In this document: piece after piece, positions 31,086 through 51,320 of the stretch
Numbering within the stretch: the first letter of the stretch is position 1
Layout of the letters: each line of letters begins with the position of its first letter
Assembly: GCF_036206005.1 (NCBI RefSeq)
Contig: NZ_CP108143.1
Coordinates: 3,610,001 to 3,674,000 of the forward strand
Direction: 5' to 3'
Source of the DNA: Streptomyces sp. NBC_00178
Lineage (GTDB): Bacteria > Actinomycetota > Actinomycetes > Streptomycetales > Streptomycetaceae
DNA length: 64,000 bases
Translations under genes and position numbers: made by a program
Notes under the pieces: generated by a model
What the model was told of the DNA's origin: nothing
The model's input: only the letters and a program-made list of their open reading frames with translations
Database searches by the model: none

Positions 31086-31116
31086 CACCGCGTACGCACC
31101 GCCTTCCCGTGCGACG

Positions 31117-31155
31117 GAGGAGCCCGGGACCCGTGGATCGGGTCCCGGGCTCCTC
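31117..31155 (+). terminator. Strong terminator after metG
   Basis: A perfect 17-bp stem with a 5-base TGGAT loop lies 31 bases after the metG stop and before the convergent L,D-transpeptidase-like gene. It should work in both directions. Confidence 0.92.
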
Positions 31156-31178
31156 CATGCGCCCCGGCGGGCCCCCGC

Positions 31179-32180: not shown

Positions 32181-32205
32181 AGCCCCCGGCCGGTGACCGG
32201 GGGCT
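32181..32205 (-). terminator. Terminator after aspS
   Basis: AGCCCCCGG and CCGGGGGCT form a 9-bp stem, 34 bases after the aspS stop in the leftward direction. A parS-like site abuts it on the aspS side. Confidence 0.8.
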
Positions 32206-32219
32206 GTTTCACGTGGAAC
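32206..32219. other. parS-like site (one mismatch)
   Basis: GTTTCACGTGGAAC differs at one base from the streptomycete ParB-binding consensus GTTTCACGTGAAAC. It touches the aspS terminator hairpin. ParB sites cluster around oriC in Streptomyces, and a perfect copy lies 13.9 kb away at 46,065. Confidence 0.75.
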
Positions 32220-32238: not shown

Positions 32239-34065
32239 CTACTTCGCGCCGGTGTCCCTCGCCACAGAGTCCTTGGCGTCGGCGGCCTTGGCTCCGCCCT
32301 TCGCCGAGGCGACGGGCTTGCGGAGCTGGATGTTCAGCTCACGCAGCCGCGTCTCGTCCAGCTCGCTCGGAGCGCCCATCATCAGGTCCTGGGCGTTGCC
32401 GTTCAGCGGGAAGGCGATCGTCTCGCGGATGTTGGGCTCGTCGGCCAGCAGCATGACGATGCGGTCGACACCCGGGGCGATGCCGCCGTGCGGCGGGGCG
32501 CCGAGGCGGAAGGCGCGGAGCATGCCCGCGAACTCCCTCTCGACGGTCTCCGCCTCGTAGCCGGCGATCGCGAAGGCCTTCAGCATGACCTCGGGCTCGT
32601 GGTTCCGGATGGCGCCGGAGGACAGTTCGATGCCGTTGCAGACGATGTCGTACTGCCAGGCCAGGATGTCGAGCGGGTCCTTCTCCTCCAGGTCCTTCAT
32701 GCCGCCCTGGGGCATGGAGAAGGGGTTGTGCGAGAAGTCGATCTTCCCGGTCTCCTCGTCCTTCTCGTACATCGGGAAGTCGACGATCCAGCAGAAGCGG
32801 AAGACGTCCTCCTCGAATCGGCCGGCGCGCTTGGCGGCCTCGACGCGGACGACGGACATGATCTTGGAGACCTCGTCGAACTCGCCCGCGCCGAAGAAGA
32901 CCGCGTGGCCGGGAACGAGGGACAGACGCTCGGTGAGGGTCTTGACGTCCGCCTCGGTGAGGAACTTGGCGATGGGACCGGCGAGCGTGCCGTCCTCGCC
33001 GACGCGGATCCAGGCGAGGCCCTTGGCGCCGTGCTCGACCGCGTAGGCGCCGAGGCCGTCGAAGAACTTACGGGACTGGCCCGCCGTGTCCGGCACCGGA
33101 AGGGCGCGGACGTGCTTGCCGGCGAAGGCCTTGAACTCCGAGTCCGCGAAGATGTCGGAGATGTCGACGAGCTCCAGCTGGGCCCGCAGGTCCGGCTTGT
33201 CGTTGCCGTACTTCAGCATCGACTCGCGGAACGGGATGCGCGGGAACGGCGAGGTCACCGGGCGGCCGTTGCCGTACTCCTCGAAGAGCTCGGTCATGAG
33301 CTTCTCGATCGGCTGGAAGACGTCCTCCTGCTCGACGAACGACATCTCGACGTCGAGCTGGTAGAACTCGCCGGGCGAGCGGTCGGCGCGGGCGTCCTCG
33401 TCGCGGAAGCAGGGCGCGATCTGGAAGTAGCGGTCGAAGCCGGAGATCATCAGCAGCTGCTTGAACTGCTGCGGCGCCTGCGGGAGCGCGTAGAACTTGC
33501 CCGGGTTCAGGCGGGAGGGGACCACGAAGTCACGGGCGCCCTCGGGGGAGGTCGCGGCGAGGATCGGGGTCGCCATCTCGTTGAAGCCGAGGGCCACCAT
33601 CTTGGAGCGGATGGACGCGATCACGGACGAGCGCAGCATGATGTTGCGGTGCATGCGCTCGCGGCGCAGGTCGAGGAAGCGGTACTCCAGGCGCCGCTCC
33701 TCGTTGACCCCGTCCTCGGCGTTGATCGTGAAGGGCAGCGGGGCGGCCTCGCCCAGCACCTCGACCTCGGTGACCTCGATCTCGATCTCGCCGGTCGGGA
33801 GCTCCGGGTTGACGTTGTCGGCGCCGCGCGCGGAGACCTTGCCGTCGATCCGGACGACGGTCTCCTTGGTCAGCTTCGCCAGGGCGTCGTTGCCCGCGGT
33901 GCCGGGGCGGGCGACGAGCTGCACGAGACCGTAGTGGTCGCGCAGATCGATGAAGAGGATGCCGCCCAGGTCTCGGCGATTGTGCAGCCAGCCGCTCAGC
34001 CGGACGTCGGTGCCGACGTCAGAGGCGCGGAGCTCGCCGCAGGTGTGGGACCTGTACCGATGCAT
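32239..34065 (-). CDS. aspS: Aspartyl-tRNA synthetase
   Basis: The 608-residue bacterial-type class IIb synthetase charges tRNA with Asp, and possibly tRNA-Asn in organisms using the amidotransferase route. An N-terminal OB-fold anticodon domain (about 1-105, [20 protein letters not shown]) precedes the catalytic core with class II motifs: [19 protein letters not shown] (motif 2) and [20 protein letters not shown] (motif 3). The bacterial insertion domain lies at about 290-420. The C-terminal 40 residues are Lys/Ala-rich and variable. The ATG at 34,065 is the only good start. It shares a 185-base divergent region with the phosphatase gene. Confidence 0.97.
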
Positions 34066-37489: not shown

Positions 37490-37528
37490 AGCGGCGTACG
37501 GGTGACGGACCGTCACCCGTACGCCGCT
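37490..37528. terminator. Very strong palindrome, pirin terminator
   Basis: Arms of 19 bases (37,490-37,508 and 37,510-37,528) are exact complements around a single base. It lies 10 bases beyond the pirin stop codon and upstream of the transporter gene. In DNA it could extrude as a cruciform. Confidence 0.85.
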
Positions 37529-38610: not shown

Positions 38611-38645
38611 CCGAGGGCCCGCACCTGCTCGGTGCGGGCCCTCGG
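38611..38645 (-). terminator. Terminator after the SseB-like gene
   Basis: CCGAGGGCCCGCACC and its exact complement form a 15-bp stem with a 5-base loop, 24 bases beyond the stop codon. Confidence 0.9.
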
Positions 38646-41137: not shown

Positions 41138-41177
41138 AGGTGCGGCCCGCCCCCGTAGCAGGGGGCGGGCCGCACCT
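41138..41177 (+). terminator. Strong terminator after acyl-CoA dehydrogenase
   Basis: A perfect 17-bp stem closes a 6-base GTAGCA loop, 30 bases after the stop codon. Confidence 0.92.
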
Positions 41178-43672: not shown

Positions 43673-45484
43673 TCAGGCCTGCTCGTCCATCCCGGCCAGC
43701 ACCAGCGGAAGCCGGGACGTACCTCCCGCGGTGACGCTGACGGGAACGCCCCAGTCCTGCTGGTGCACGTGGCAGGCCGGGTACTCGTTCGCCGGGTCGT
43801 CGTCGCAGGAGGCCGCCATCGCGGAGACGTGGAGGACGCCCTCGGTGAACCCGTCCGCGAGGACCAGGTCACGGCTCAGGTCCGTCCCCTGGCCCGCGCC
43901 CTCGGCCAGGAGTTCCGGCGGGGTCGAGGAGACCAGGAGTCGCGTCGAGGGCCCGTAACGGACATCCAGTTTCTGCCCGGCGGGCGCCTGGAAGACCACG
44001 TCCAGCCGCAGCGTGCCGGCGGCGACCTCGGTGGCCGCCCGCTGCGTGCGGTGCGCCCGGTCCGCGACGCGCACGGCCTCCTCGGGCAGCCGCAGCCGGG
44101 TCAGCCGGTGCCGGGCGGACTCGACGACGACCAGGTCGCCGTCCACAAGGACCGCGTCGCTCGGCTCCCGCAGGTCCGTCGCCAGCGTCGTGACCTCACC
44201 GCTCTCCGGGTCGAACCGGCGCAGCGCGTGGTTGTAGGTGTCGCTGACGGCCACGGAGCCGTCCGGGAGGGCCGTGACGCCCAGGGGGTGCTGGAAAAGC
44301 GCCTGGCCTGCCTCCCCGTCACGGTGTCCGAAGTCGAAGAGCCCCGTGCCGACGGCCGTGTGCACGGCGCCGTCCAGGTCCACGTACCGCAGGGCCGAGG
44401 TCTCCGAGTCGGCGACCCAGAGCCGGTCCCCGGCCGCCGCGAGACCGGAGGGCTGCGCGAACCACGCCTCGGGACCGGGCCCGTCTACCAGACCCTCGTT
44501 CGTCGTACCGGCGGCGACCCGCACGGTCCCCTGCTCGGGGTCGTAGGTCCACAGCTGGTGCACGCCGGCCATGGCGATCCACAGCCGGTCGCCGAACCAG
44601 GCGATGTCCCACGGCGAGGACAGGTCCACCTCGGCGGCCGGGCCGCTGGTGGGGGAGCCCTGCCACCACTGGCGACCGGTCCCGGCGAGCGTCGTCGTGA
44701 CGCCCGTCGCGAGGTCGAGGGCCCTGATGGCGTGGTTGACCGTGTCCGCGACGGCGATGCGGCCGTCCGGGAGGAGGGCGAGGCCCTGGGGCTCGCTGAA
44801 CCGCGCGTCGGACCGGCCGCCGTCGGCGAACCCGCGCTCGCCGCTGCCGTAGTGCCCGCGCACGGTCTCACCGTCGGCGTCGAGCTCGACCAGGCGGTGG
44901 CGCGTGGTGTCGGAGACCAGGAATCCCCCGTCGGGAAGGACGAGTGCCTTGCCGGGGAAACGCAGATGGGTGGCGACCGGCTCCGGTGCCACGTACGGGC
45001 CGTCGCCACGCCGCAGCGTGCCCTTCTCGGTGTGCTCGGCCTCCAGCTCCTCGATCAGCTTCCCGATGGCGTGCGCGTGCCCCTCACCGGCGTGCTGGGC
45101 GACCACGTAACCCTCGGGATCCACCACGACGAGGGTCGGCCACGCCCGCACGGCGTACTGCTTCCAGGTGGCGAGCTCGGGGTCGTCGAGGACCGGGTGG
45201 TGCACCCCGTACCGCTCGACGGCGTCGACCACGGCCTCGTGCTCGGCCTCGTGGACGAACTTCGGCGAGTGGACGCCGATGATCACCACGGTGTCGCGGT
45301 GCTTCTCCTCCAGCTCGCGCAGCTCGTCGAGCACGTGCAGGCAGTTCACACAGCAAAAGGTCCAGAAATCCAGGATGACAATGCGTCCCCGCAGGTCAGC
45401 CAAGGTGTACTGCCGGTCGCCTGTATTGAGCCAGCCGCCCTTGCCGATCAGTTCGGGGGCGCGGACACGTGCACGTGCTGTCAT
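43673..45484 (-). CDS. Thioredoxin-NHL repeat protein
   Basis: The 603-residue protein joins an N-terminal thioredoxin-like domain (about 1-155) to an NHL beta-propeller (about 165-470) and a C-terminal domain of about 130 residues. The redox motif is WTFCCVNCLHV (CVNC). Propeller repeats are seen as RFSEPQGLALLPDGRIAVAD, VNHAIRALD and QHPLGVTALPDGSVAVSDTY. No signal peptide is present. Eukaryotic NHLRC2 has the same architecture, with unknown biochemical role. I chose ATG at 45,484 (MTARARVRAP); a GTG at 45,502 would add six residues. It has no Shine-Dalgarno sequence, so the transcript may be leaderless. Confidence 0.92.
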   Translation of the reverse strand: MTARARVRAPELIGKGGWLNTGDRQYTLADLRGRIVILDFWTFCCVNCLHVLDELRELEEKHRDTVVIIGVHSPKFVHEAEHEAVVDAVERYGVHHPVLDDPELATWKQYAVRAWPTLVVVDPEGYVVAQHAGEGHAHAIGKLIEELEAEHTEKGTLRRGDGPYVAPEPVATHLRFPGKALVLPDGGFLVSDTTRHRLVELDADGETVRGHYGSGERGFADGGRSDARFSEPQGLALLPDGRIAVADTVNHAIRALDLATGVTTTLAGTGRQWWQGSPTSGPAAEVDLSSPWDIAWFGDRLWIAMAGVHQLWTYDPEQGTVRVAAGTTNEGLVDGPGPEAWFAQPSGLAAAGDRLWVADSETSALRYVDLDGAVHTAVGTGLFDFGHRDGEAGQALFQHPLGVTALPDGSVAVSDTYNHALRRFDPESGEVTTLATDLREPSDAVLVDGDLVVVESARHRLTRLRLPEEAVRVADRAHRTQRAATEVAAGTLRLDVVFQAPAGQKLDVRYGPSTRLLVSSTPPELLAEGAGQGTDLSRDLVLADGFTEGVLHVSAMAASCDDDPANEYPACHVHQQDWGVPVSVTAGGTSRLPLVLAGMDEQA

Positions 45485-45548
45485 GCCAACAGTCAACAGC
45501 ACCGTGCCCTGCGCGCATTCCGGTCAGGCGTCGGGGAACCTGTGATCC

Positions 45549-46040
45549 ATGAGACTTCTCGTACGTGAGCGGCTGTTCGGCGTCGGCGACGACTACTGGA
45601 TCGAGGACGCGGACGGGCGCAAGCTCTTCCTCGTCGACGGCAAGGCCATGCGGCTCCGCGACACCTTCGAGCTGAAGGACACGGACGGCCGGGTGCTGGT
45701 GGAGATCCGCCAGAAGCTGATCAGCCTGCGCGACACCATGCTCATCGAACGGGACGGCGACGAGCTGGCCAAGGTCAAGCGGAAGCGGCTCTCGCTGCTG
45801 CGCAACCACTACCGGGTGACCCTGGTGGACGGCACGGAGCTGGACGTCAGCGGCAAGATCCTGGACCGCGAGTTCGCCATCGACTACGACGGCGAACTGC
45901 TCGCCCAGATCTCCCGGCGCTGGCTCACCGTCCGGGACACGTACGGCGTCGACATCGTGCGGGAGGACGCCGACGTGCCGCTGCTGATCGCGGTCGCGGT
46001 GTGCGTGATCGTGCTCGCCGACAAGGAGCACGAGGACTGA
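45549..46040 (+). CDS. LURP-one-related (Tubby C2-like) protein
   Basis: The 163-residue protein consists of repeated beta hairpins with the pattern DYWIEDADGRKLFLVDGKAM and LRDTMLIERDG, typical of LURP-one/phospholipid-scramblase-like folds. A hydrophobic C-terminal stretch (VPLLIAVAVCVIVLAD) may touch the membrane. Bacterial members are uncharacterised. ATG at 45,549 lies 64 bases from the divergent thioredoxin-NHL gene, so the two share a promoter region. The convergent terminator downstream carries a parS site. Confidence 0.9.
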   Translation: MRLLVRERLFGVGDDYWIEDADGRKLFLVDGKAMRLRDTFELKDTDGRVLVEIRQKLISLRDTMLIERDGDELAKVKRKRLSLLRNHYRVTLVDGTELDVSGKILDREFAIDYDGELLAQISRRWLTVRDTYGVDIVREDADVPLLIAVAVCVIVLADKEHED

Positions 46041-46047
46041 GCACCGG

Positions 46048-46095
46048 CGCGGCACCCGGGCCCGGTTTCACGTGAAACCGGGCCCGGGTGCCGCG
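46048..46095. terminator. 48-bp perfect palindrome: terminator containing parS
   Basis: Positions 46,048-46,071 and 46,072-46,095 are exact reverse complements, with no spacer. It lies between convergent genes, 7 bases after one stop codon and 3 bases after the other, and should act as a bidirectional terminator. Its centre is the parS site. Confidence 0.9.
46065..46078. other. parS, ParB-binding site (perfect)
   Basis: GTTTCACGTGAAAC is identical to the 14-bp palindromic parS consensus of Streptomyces. ParB binds these sites around oriC to segregate chromosomes during sporulation. Its presence puts this window in the origin-proximal part of the chromosome. It forms the centre of a larger palindrome. 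Confidence 0.93.
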
Positions 46096-46098
46096 TCC

Positions 46099-46890
46099 TC
46101 AGCGCGGCGGCGCGAGACCGAGGCGGCGGTCCTTCAGGGCCGGGAACTGCTCCCGGGTGGTGGCGGTCCTCGCCGGGTCGAACTCGACGGTGAGCACCTC
46201 CTCGGCCGCTCCGGCCTCGGCGAGCACCTCGCCCCAGGGGTCCACGACGATGCTGTGGCCCGCCTGCTCGACTCCTCCGTTGGTGCCCGACGAGCCGACC
46301 GCCAGGACGTACGCCTGGTTCTCGACGGCGCGGGCCTGCGCCAGCAGGGTCCAGTGCGCGCGCCGGCGCTCAGGCCAGCCGGCCGGGACGACCAGGATCT
46401 CGGCGCCGGCGTCGACGAGCCCCCGGAACTGCTCGGGGAAGCGCAGGTCGTAGCACGTGGCGAGGCCGAGGGTGGTCTCGGGCAGTGCGACGGTGACGAG
46501 TTCCTCGCCCGCTCCCATCATCACCGCCTCGCCCTTGTCGAACCCGAACCGGTGGATCTTGCGGTACGCGGCGACGCGCTCCCCCTCGGGGGAGAGGACG
46601 AGCGAGGTGTTGTAGAGGGTGCCGTCATCGGCGCGCTCGACGAAGGAACCCGCGTGCAGCCAGACGCCGGCCTCGGCGGCGGCCTTCGCCATGACGTCGT
46701 GCGTGGGGCCCCGCAGCGGTTCTGCCGCGTCCTCGAACGCGGTGTAGGCGAACGCTCCGACAGGCCAGAGTTCGGGCAGGACGACCAGGTCCGCGCCCCG
46801 CTGGGCCACGACCAGTGAAGCCGCGCGCTCTCTACGGGAATTGATCGATTCATCCGGGTTTGCAGCGATCTGGATGAGGGAGGCGTGCAC
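46099..46890 (-). CDS. Carbon-nitrogen hydrolase (nitrilase/amidase family)
   Basis: The 263-residue enzyme has the nitrilase triad: Glu in LVVLPELWP, Lys in YRKIHRFGFDKG, and Cys in LATCYDLRFPEQF. The size and motifs fit omega-amidase or deaminated-glutathione amidase members that cleave amide bonds in the cytoplasm. Start is GTG at 46,890, with GAGGGAG overlapping just downstream and no clear upstream site, so the start is somewhat uncertain. It shares a divergent region of about 200 bases with the mycothiol-dependent isomerase-like gene. Confidence 0.92.
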   Translation of the reverse strand: MHASLIQIAANPDESINSRRERAASLVVAQRGADLVVLPELWPVGAFAYTAFEDAAEPLRGPTHDVMAKAAAEAGVWLHAGSFVERADDGTLYNTSLVLSPEGERVAAYRKIHRFGFDKGEAVMMGAGEELVTVALPETTLGLATCYDLRFPEQFRGLVDAGAEILVVPAGWPERRRAHWTLLAQARAVENQAYVLAVGSSGTNGGVEQAGHSIVVDPWGEVLAEAGAAEEVLTVEFDPARTATTREQFPALKDRRLGLAPPR

Positions 46891-47089
46891 ACTACCACCG
46901 TCCTGGCATGGAAGCCGTCAACGCGGGCCTACGATCGTCACACGAAAGCACTGCCGGGGTGCCTGCTCGCAGCGTAACTTAGCGAGCGAACCTCCCACGC
47001 AGCCCGCAGACAGCGCCGTCGCTGCCGGCCCTCCCGTCGGCAGTCCCTGCTCGCCAGCCCATGCACCGCAGAACCGCACGAGGGGTCCC

Positions 47090-47914
47090 GTGACCGTCCA
47101 TCCCAGCCTCCAGACCTACGCCGACGCCTGGACCCACTCCGTCGAGTCGATATCCGAGCTGGTCAAGCCACTCGCCGAGGGGGAGTGGAACCGCCGAACC
47201 CCCTGCCCGGGCTGGTCGGTCCGCGACATCGTCTCGCACGTCATCGGCATGGAGTGCGAGCAGCTCGGCGACCCCCGGCCGATCCACACCCTGCCGCGCG
47301 ACCTCTACCACGTGCAGAACGACAAGCAGCGCTACATGGAGATGCAGGTAGACGTCCGGCGTCACCACACCGCGCCGGAGATGACCTCGGAGCTGGAGTA
47401 CACGCTCATCCGCAGGATGCGTCAGCTCCGCAACGAGTCGCGCGACCCCGGGACCATGGTGCGGGCCCCTCTCGGTGCCGAGCAGACCCTGGAACTCGCA
47501 CTGCGCATGCGGGCCTTCGACGTATGGGTGCACGAACAGGACCTGCGGACGACGCTGGGGCAGCCGGGCAACCTCGACTCCCCCGGCGCCCTGCTCGCCA
47601 GGGACGTCCTGCTGATCGGGCTGGCGAAGGTGGTCGCCAAGGACGCGGGCGCGCCGCCGAATTCCGCCGTGGTCTTCGACGTGCACGGCCCGGTGGAGTT
47701 CCTGCGCACGGTGCGGGTCGACGGCGAGGGGCGCGGCTCGGTCGACGGTGCGCCGTCCCTCGGTCCCGCCGCGACGCTGGCGATGGACTGGGAGACGTAC
47801 TACCGCCTGGCGTGCGGCCGGGTGCGTCCGCACGCCGTGGAGGACCGGATCAAGATCGACGGGGACCAGGACCTGGCGGCAGAGATCCTGCGGAACTTCG
47901 CCGTCACCCCGTGA
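47090..47914 (+). CDS. Maleylpyruvate isomerase-like, mycothiol-dependent protein
   Basis: The 274-residue protein belongs to the DinB-like MDMPI family: an N-terminal four-helix domain with LVKPLAEGEWNRRTPCPGWS and VRDIVSHVIGMECEQLGDP (the metal-binding His), and a C-terminal MDMPI-C-like domain. The enzyme type uses mycothiol as cofactor, but most paralogues have unknown reactions. GTG at 47,090 has GAGGGG seven bases upstream and begins MTVHPSLQTYADAW. It is probably monocistronic, ending at a strong hairpin. Confidence 0.87.
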   Translation: MTVHPSLQTYADAWTHSVESISELVKPLAEGEWNRRTPCPGWSVRDIVSHVIGMECEQLGDPRPIHTLPRDLYHVQNDKQRYMEMQVDVRRHHTAPEMTSELEYTLIRRMRQLRNESRDPGTMVRAPLGAEQTLELALRMRAFDVWVHEQDLRTTLGQPGNLDSPGALLARDVLLIGLAKVVAKDAGAPPNSAVVFDVHGPVEFLRTVRVDGEGRGSVDGAPSLGPAATLAMDWETYYRLACGRVRPHAVEDRIKIDGDQDLAAEILRNFAVTP

Positions 47915-51275: not shown

Positions 51276-51320
51276 CGCGCGAAGGGGCCCGCCGCATCCT
51301 GCGGCGGGCCCCTTCGCGCG
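51276..51320. terminator. Strong bidirectional terminator, 20-bp stem
   Basis: A perfect 20-bp stem (51,276-51,295 with 51,301-51,320) and a 5-base loop separate the convergent PBP and bkdC genes. It lies 13 bases after one stop codon and 5 bases after the other. Confidence 0.93.

Follow-up and report, generated by a model that had tools for sequence, protein, structure and literature searches.

An exact parS site at the apex of a predicted 3′-end hairpin between convergent Streptomyces genes

By ChIP-seq, ParB of Streptomyces venezuelae is found at 16–17 parS sites near the origin (PMC4852455, PMC12511625), and in the ParABS systems of S. coelicolor and S. venezuelae, as described in the parts of the literature accessible to us, parS is an exact 14-mer present in multiple clustered copies. 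The sites that we describe here are like these in both respects, but the published Streptomyces sites are treated as bare palindromes, and hairpin arms, terminators and placement at 3′ ends go unmentioned in the accessible text. Separately, Term-seq in Streptomyces has revealed U-poor, highly stable 3′-end hairpins, termed "I-shaped terminators" or "protected 3′ ends," as well as bidirectional 3′ ends (PMC8269248, PMC8914203, PMC12207403; accessible portions). The hairpin described below resembles these in its long GC-rich stem near stop codons, its lack of a U-tract, and its position between convergent genes; unlike them, its loop region is a parS site, and parS has 0 occurrences in the accessible portions of the S. 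griseus and atlas papers.

In Pseudomonas aeruginosa, parS3 and parS4 also lie within a gene-expression signal, and ParB represses the genes beside them (PMC7022226, in part), but those sites overlap upstream gene regions, whereas the Streptomyces sites described here overlap 3′ ends and avoid divergent gaps. Each of these elements, parS itself, U-poor terminators, and promoter-adjacent parS, is already known. In literature searches and in the accessible portions of PMC5157956, PMC4852455, PMC12511625, PMC8743542, PMC7022226, PMC13245405, and PMC7083940, we found no account of a parS that is part of a terminator or abuts one.

A 48-bp palindrome between convergent stop codons

A palindrome scan of the 64,000-nt stretch of Streptomyces sp. 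NBC_00178 analyzed here (hereafter the window) identified a perfect 48-bp palindrome at 46048–46095, with arms of 24; the other perfect even palindromes of the window have arms of at most 9, that is, the next longest is 18 bp. At its center, at 46065–46078, lies an exact copy of the 14-mer GTTTCACGTGAAAC, the Streptomyces-type parS core. The site matches this core at 14/14 positions and the longer 16-mer consensus TGTTTCACGTGAAACA at 14/16, with both mismatches in the outermost pair, which is G-C instead of T-A; it is a predicted ParB loading site, and the genome has 17 such exact copies in all. On one side, a LURP-one-related protein gene (45549–46040, + strand, Pfam LOR) has its stop codon at 46038–46040, 7 nt upstream of the palindrome start, and on the other, a carbon-nitrogen hydrolase gene (46099–46890, − strand, Pfam CN_hydrolase) has its stop codon at 46099–46101, 3 nt from the palindrome end, so that the two genes are convergent. 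The sequence-only reading had described a perfect parS centered in a 48-bp palindrome 3–7 bases from two convergent stops, and its coordinates are borne out.

RNA folding of positions 46040–46110 gives one hairpin at −58.9 kcal/mol, for which the z-score relative to dinucleotide shuffles is −7.1, with 0/200 shuffles as good; when parS was kept intact and only the flanks were shuffled, the z-score was −6.9, with 0/150 as good. A scan of 45000–47000 for canonical terminators, consisting of a hairpin followed by a T-run, gave 0 matches, a U-tract is absent on both sides of the palindrome, and an Rfam search over 45000–47200 gave no match. What the palindrome does have are the features of the I-shaped or structured U-poor 3′-end hairpins: a stable, GC-rich, U-poor stem-loop soon after a stop codon and, as the covariation at the LURP-one locus described below indicates, a stem held by compensatory change. 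Judged on these features, the window hairpin fits the published Streptomyces U-poor class, and we propose that 46048–46095 acts as a bidirectional 3′-end hairpin or terminator with parS at its apex, formed in RNA from either strand.

Long hairpins of this kind are an ordinary 3′-end structure in this chromosome. Within 450 kb of it, we counted 72 hairpins with a stem of at least 11 and a loop of at most 10, of which 60 fall between convergent or co-directional genes, 8 inside genes, and 4 in divergent gaps, and most have ordinary loops of 2–7 nt. The two longest in this stretch, at C1:3814389–3814449 (27-bp stem) and C1:3744609–3744662 (26 bp), contain no parS.

The window also contains a second arrangement, with parS beside rather than within a 3′-end hairpin. 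At the 3′ end of a − strand gene at 32239–34065, presumably that of aspartyl-tRNA synthetase, a degenerate parS with 1 mismatch, GTTTCACGTGGAAC, at 32206–32219 is directly abutted by a 9-bp hairpin at 32181–32205, the stem of which was read from the sequence. Because the equivalent gene end in two other genomes, G005 (L215:11170) and G023 (L169:1514), has an intact parS beside a hairpin, the window copy looks decayed.

Hairpins at parS sites of nine Streptomyces genomes

The 17 exact parS copies of the source genome all lie within 3.556–3.798 Mb of the 7.3-Mb contig, and together with 3 one-mismatch copies they span 3.556–3.899 Mb, a region that we take to be the origin region. Four of the 17 are centered in long palindromes (arms of 16, 24, 18, and 18), 2 are within hairpins with shorter or displaced arms, and 3 abut a hairpin of at least 11 bp, so that 9/17 are in or against a hairpin and 8/17 are without one. 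Among the 16 intergenic copies, 9 are in convergent gaps, which make up 16% of called intergenic bases, and 1 is in a divergent gap, a context that makes up 31%; the convergent excess has a binomial p of 3e-4, with the reservation that neighboring sites in the same gap are not independent.

We then considered all 159 exact parS of nine Streptomyces genomes (this one and eight others), which have 14–22 copies each, concentrated in one region. One genome, G031, carries four tandem parS in a stretch of roughly 90 bp immediately upstream of a gene start (L190:1558–1648). Gene contexts came from a home-made gene caller, which assigned 78% of the 450-kb stretch to coding sequence, and because of this some contexts, chiefly "inside gene" and the more distant co-directional ones, may be wrong. 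Many of the 159 sites are orthologous between genomes, so the counts that follow are not counts of independent events, though the arm sequences differ.

The sequence-only reading had raised the question of whether other parS sites also sit in terminator-like hairpins, and many do. At 27/159 parS, each palindrome arm extends over 13 bp or more; exchanging the left and right parS flanks between genomes gives an expectation of 0.82. Of these 27, 25 are at gene 3′ ends. By context, such arms occur at 20/66 sites in convergent gaps, 5/35 co-directional sites at most 90 nt from a 3′ end, 1/34 co-directional sites farther away, 1/16 sites inside called genes, and 0/8 divergent sites, giving 25/101 near 3′ ends versus 2/58 elsewhere (Fisher p 3e-4).

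A further 16/159 parS are adjoined by a hairpin with a stem of at least 11 and a loop of at most 10. The edges of hairpins near parS are concentrated at distances of no more than about 5 nt, peaking sharply at zero, and are rare elsewhere up to 150 nt; because they cluster at parS and are scarce at other distances, this abutting class is not an effect of parS symmetry. The 17 such hairpins that we listed have stems of 11–22, and most have a loop of 4. When centered hairpins (with a cut-off of 12) are combined with asymmetric and abutting ones, leaving out of the latter two any stem made with another parS, 62/159 parS have a hairpin and 97/159 do not, with 39/66 in convergent gaps, 19/69 co-directional, 4/16 inside genes, and 0/8 in divergent gaps. 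The design is thus frequent but not obligatory. A count of sites with a fold z of −3 or below, also 62/159, was not used for classification; it includes tandem parS pairs folding on each other, and for this reason the combined classification is preferred.

These counts bear on an explanation in which the two elements are not coupled: parS would be tolerated in 3′ gaps, where its palindromic core is a cheap seed for a terminator stem, and both functions would be present with nothing gained by combining them. The avoidance of promoters by parS in the source genome, the commonness of parS-free hairpins at the same kind of place, and the 97 parS without a hairpin all agree with it, but growth from a seed fails to explain the abutting class, which places a stem within 6 nt of parS without using its core, and we consider this explanation unlikely although it deserves to be kept in mind.

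Outside Streptomyces, arms of at least 13 are found at 2/66 distinct parS in other Actinomycetes, among the subset of sites listed for those genomes, and so the design looks mainly, but not only, streptomycete. One of these non-Streptomyces actinomycete parS, L266:1501, carries a 19-bp arm, so that Streptomyces is not the only genus with the arrangement.

Covariation at the LURP-one and cca loci

We collected 80 loci around relatives of the LURP-one protein and placed them with the window locus on a tree of 81 rows. A parS is present at the LURP-one junction in 44/46 of the closest loci (all except L087 and L101) and in 0/34 of the next, a distribution that takes 3 changes on the tree, as a single gain followed by two losses would. 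With the window sequence counted in, 45 sequences bear parS; they were aligned without gaps, and the 14 core columns are invariant by row selection. Across these sequences, the 13 flanking pairs are 63.4% paired versus 48.0% when shuffled, and the stem has a covariation score of 0.442, compared with 0.218 for shuffled alignments (0/500 as high) and 0.11–0.19 when the pairing was slid. Arms of at least 13 are present in 17/45 sequences, versus a mean of 1.2 and a maximum of 6 in 2000 permutations. The nearest relative, L058, has a 50-bp palindrome with an outer arm sequence unlike that of the window.

At three loci (L060, L084, and L095), parS is displaced into one arm and an uninterrupted stem of 15, 13, and 10 pairs, respectively, is kept, and because the hairpin persists there with parS displaced, hairpin and parS are separable. 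In L084 and L095, a long hairpin of which parS occupies one arm is restored by an extra half-parS-like stretch next to the intact parS, and the hairpin of L095 is maintained through two G-U pairs. Most arms in one sub-clade, which comprises about 14 loci, have decayed to 7–8 bp, and folding there is mostly no better than shuffled, with z-scores near 0.

A raw comparison, in which hairpins of at least 11 are present in 24/45 parS loci versus 2/36 others, was set aside because parS itself supplies 7 pairs, which biases it, and the corrected counts are weaker. For these, we counted only pairs beyond parS and left out of the 81 L115 and L136, where no downstream gene was called, and L130 and L135, where the downstream gene is on the + strand. 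An extra-parS stem of at least 9 is then present in 17/45 parS loci versus 2/32 parS-less orthologs (p 0.001), and 16/41 versus 2/16 when gap length is matched (p 0.06); with a threshold of at least 8 the counts are 19/45 versus 10/32 (p 0.35), and with at least 11 they are 11/45 versus 2/32 (p 0.06). The stem excess over parS-less orthologs is thus threshold-dependent once pairs inside parS are discounted. An independent-pairs test of parS against hairpin presence on the tree has 3 informative pairs only.

The same pattern is seen after the gene for a CCA-adding/polyA-polymerase-type enzyme (cca), which is followed by two or three parS in all nine genomes, with a cca match at 9/9 loci and an MFS gene on the opposite side at 8/9. 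One parS at this place has arms of 16–25 in 8/9 genomes, and G031 has three parS with arms of 7, 7, and 13. The stem covariation score there is 0.519 (19 sites, nine genomes), compared with 0.203 for shuffled (0/500 as high) and 0.07–0.22 for slid alignments; the alignment A2 left out G031, and the effect remains in A3, which includes its three parS. The cca locus is independent of the LURP-one locus, and at both the comparison among relatives indicates a parS core that is invariant and a stem rewritten by compensatory changes.

Two further explanations of the arms would dispense with selection on an RNA hairpin. The first is mutational: where a site is palindromic and bound by protein, template switching would turn one arm into a copy of the other. 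Many arms are indeed perfect and lack the wobble pairs and mismatches that old RNA stems usually show, and perfect arms of 24–25 bp recur, but a copying process of this kind sits poorly with 25 of the 27 long arms being at 3′ ends and none at the divergent sites, or with the displaced-parS and abutting hairpins, which are not centered on parS, and we regard it as improbable. The second, that the palindrome acts as duplex or cruciform DNA in loading ParB or SMC, is more improbable still: the two strands of a perfect DNA palindrome read alike, and covariation cannot tell such a palindrome from an RNA stem, but the arm sequences vary between species, which implies no base-specific contact, long arms are biased to 3′ ends, non-centered forms exist, and ParB recognizes parS as a duplex that cruciform extrusion would remove.

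A possible insulating role for the hairpin

The reading that we prefer, with a probability of roughly 0.6, is that 46065–46078 is a genuine parS of the Streptomyces origin region lying at the apex of a long, GC-rich, U-poor, I-shaped bidirectional hairpin that would end two convergent transcripts, with insulation of parS from transcription as the likely benefit. The sequence-only reading had proposed that one sequence serves partition and termination at once. What stands of this, at the level of sequence, is that parS and a long 3′-end hairpin share one stretch, that this stretch meets two constraints which can be separated, one on the ParB core and one on the re-paired stem, and that this recurs at gene 3′ ends with compensatory stems; ParB binding at 46065–46078 and termination at the stem are predictions from it.

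As a mechanism, we propose that selection would hold the 14-bp core for ParB and, separately, the base pairing of the arms for an RNA hairpin. Transcripts of both convergent genes would end at the stem, and RNA polymerases arriving from either side would stop at or before parS and be released before crossing the loading site. If polymerases do stop there, ParB clamps, and SMC loaded with them, would therefore be swept off less often.

The alternative offered in the sequence-only reading, that ParB acts on RNA polymerase, has lost ground, since B. subtilis ParB had no effect on the processivity of E. coli RNA polymerase in vitro (PMC10681803, accessible portions). Termination that keeps polymerase off the ParB site would fit better. 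In the same paper, so far as it was accessible, RNA polymerase and ParB condensates coexist in vitro, and because of this insulation may not be needed; strong motors are argued there to strip ParB clamps, which reload rapidly. The null result on processivity together with rapid clamp reloading argues against ParB aiding termination. In Caulobacter, head-on transcription, that is, transcription oriented against SMC, hinders SMC translocation from parS (PMC5583512, in part).

More generally, and tentatively, since we would put it at rather less than even odds, Streptomyces centromere sites may commonly be transcriptionally insulated modules, with parS at transcript 3′ ends, either merged with a terminator hairpin or directly adjoining one. 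If so, ParB clamping and SMC loading would start where RNA polymerase crosses from neither side, which would resolve conflicts between transcription and segregation at the level of sequence. Chromosome segregation and transcription termination may be coupled at such sites. There is debate over how the loading of ParB and SMC is reconciled with transcription close to the origin (PMC5583512, PMC10681803; accessible portions), and parS with and without built-in hairpins, which occur both within one genome and at orthologous positions, form a natural library that makes this debate directly testable. The window itself holds five long 3′-end hairpins without parS, at 51276–51320 (stem 21), 31116–31156 (18), 37490–37528 (19), 41138–41177 (17), and 38611–38645 (15), which are possible internal controls for the mapping of transcript ends.
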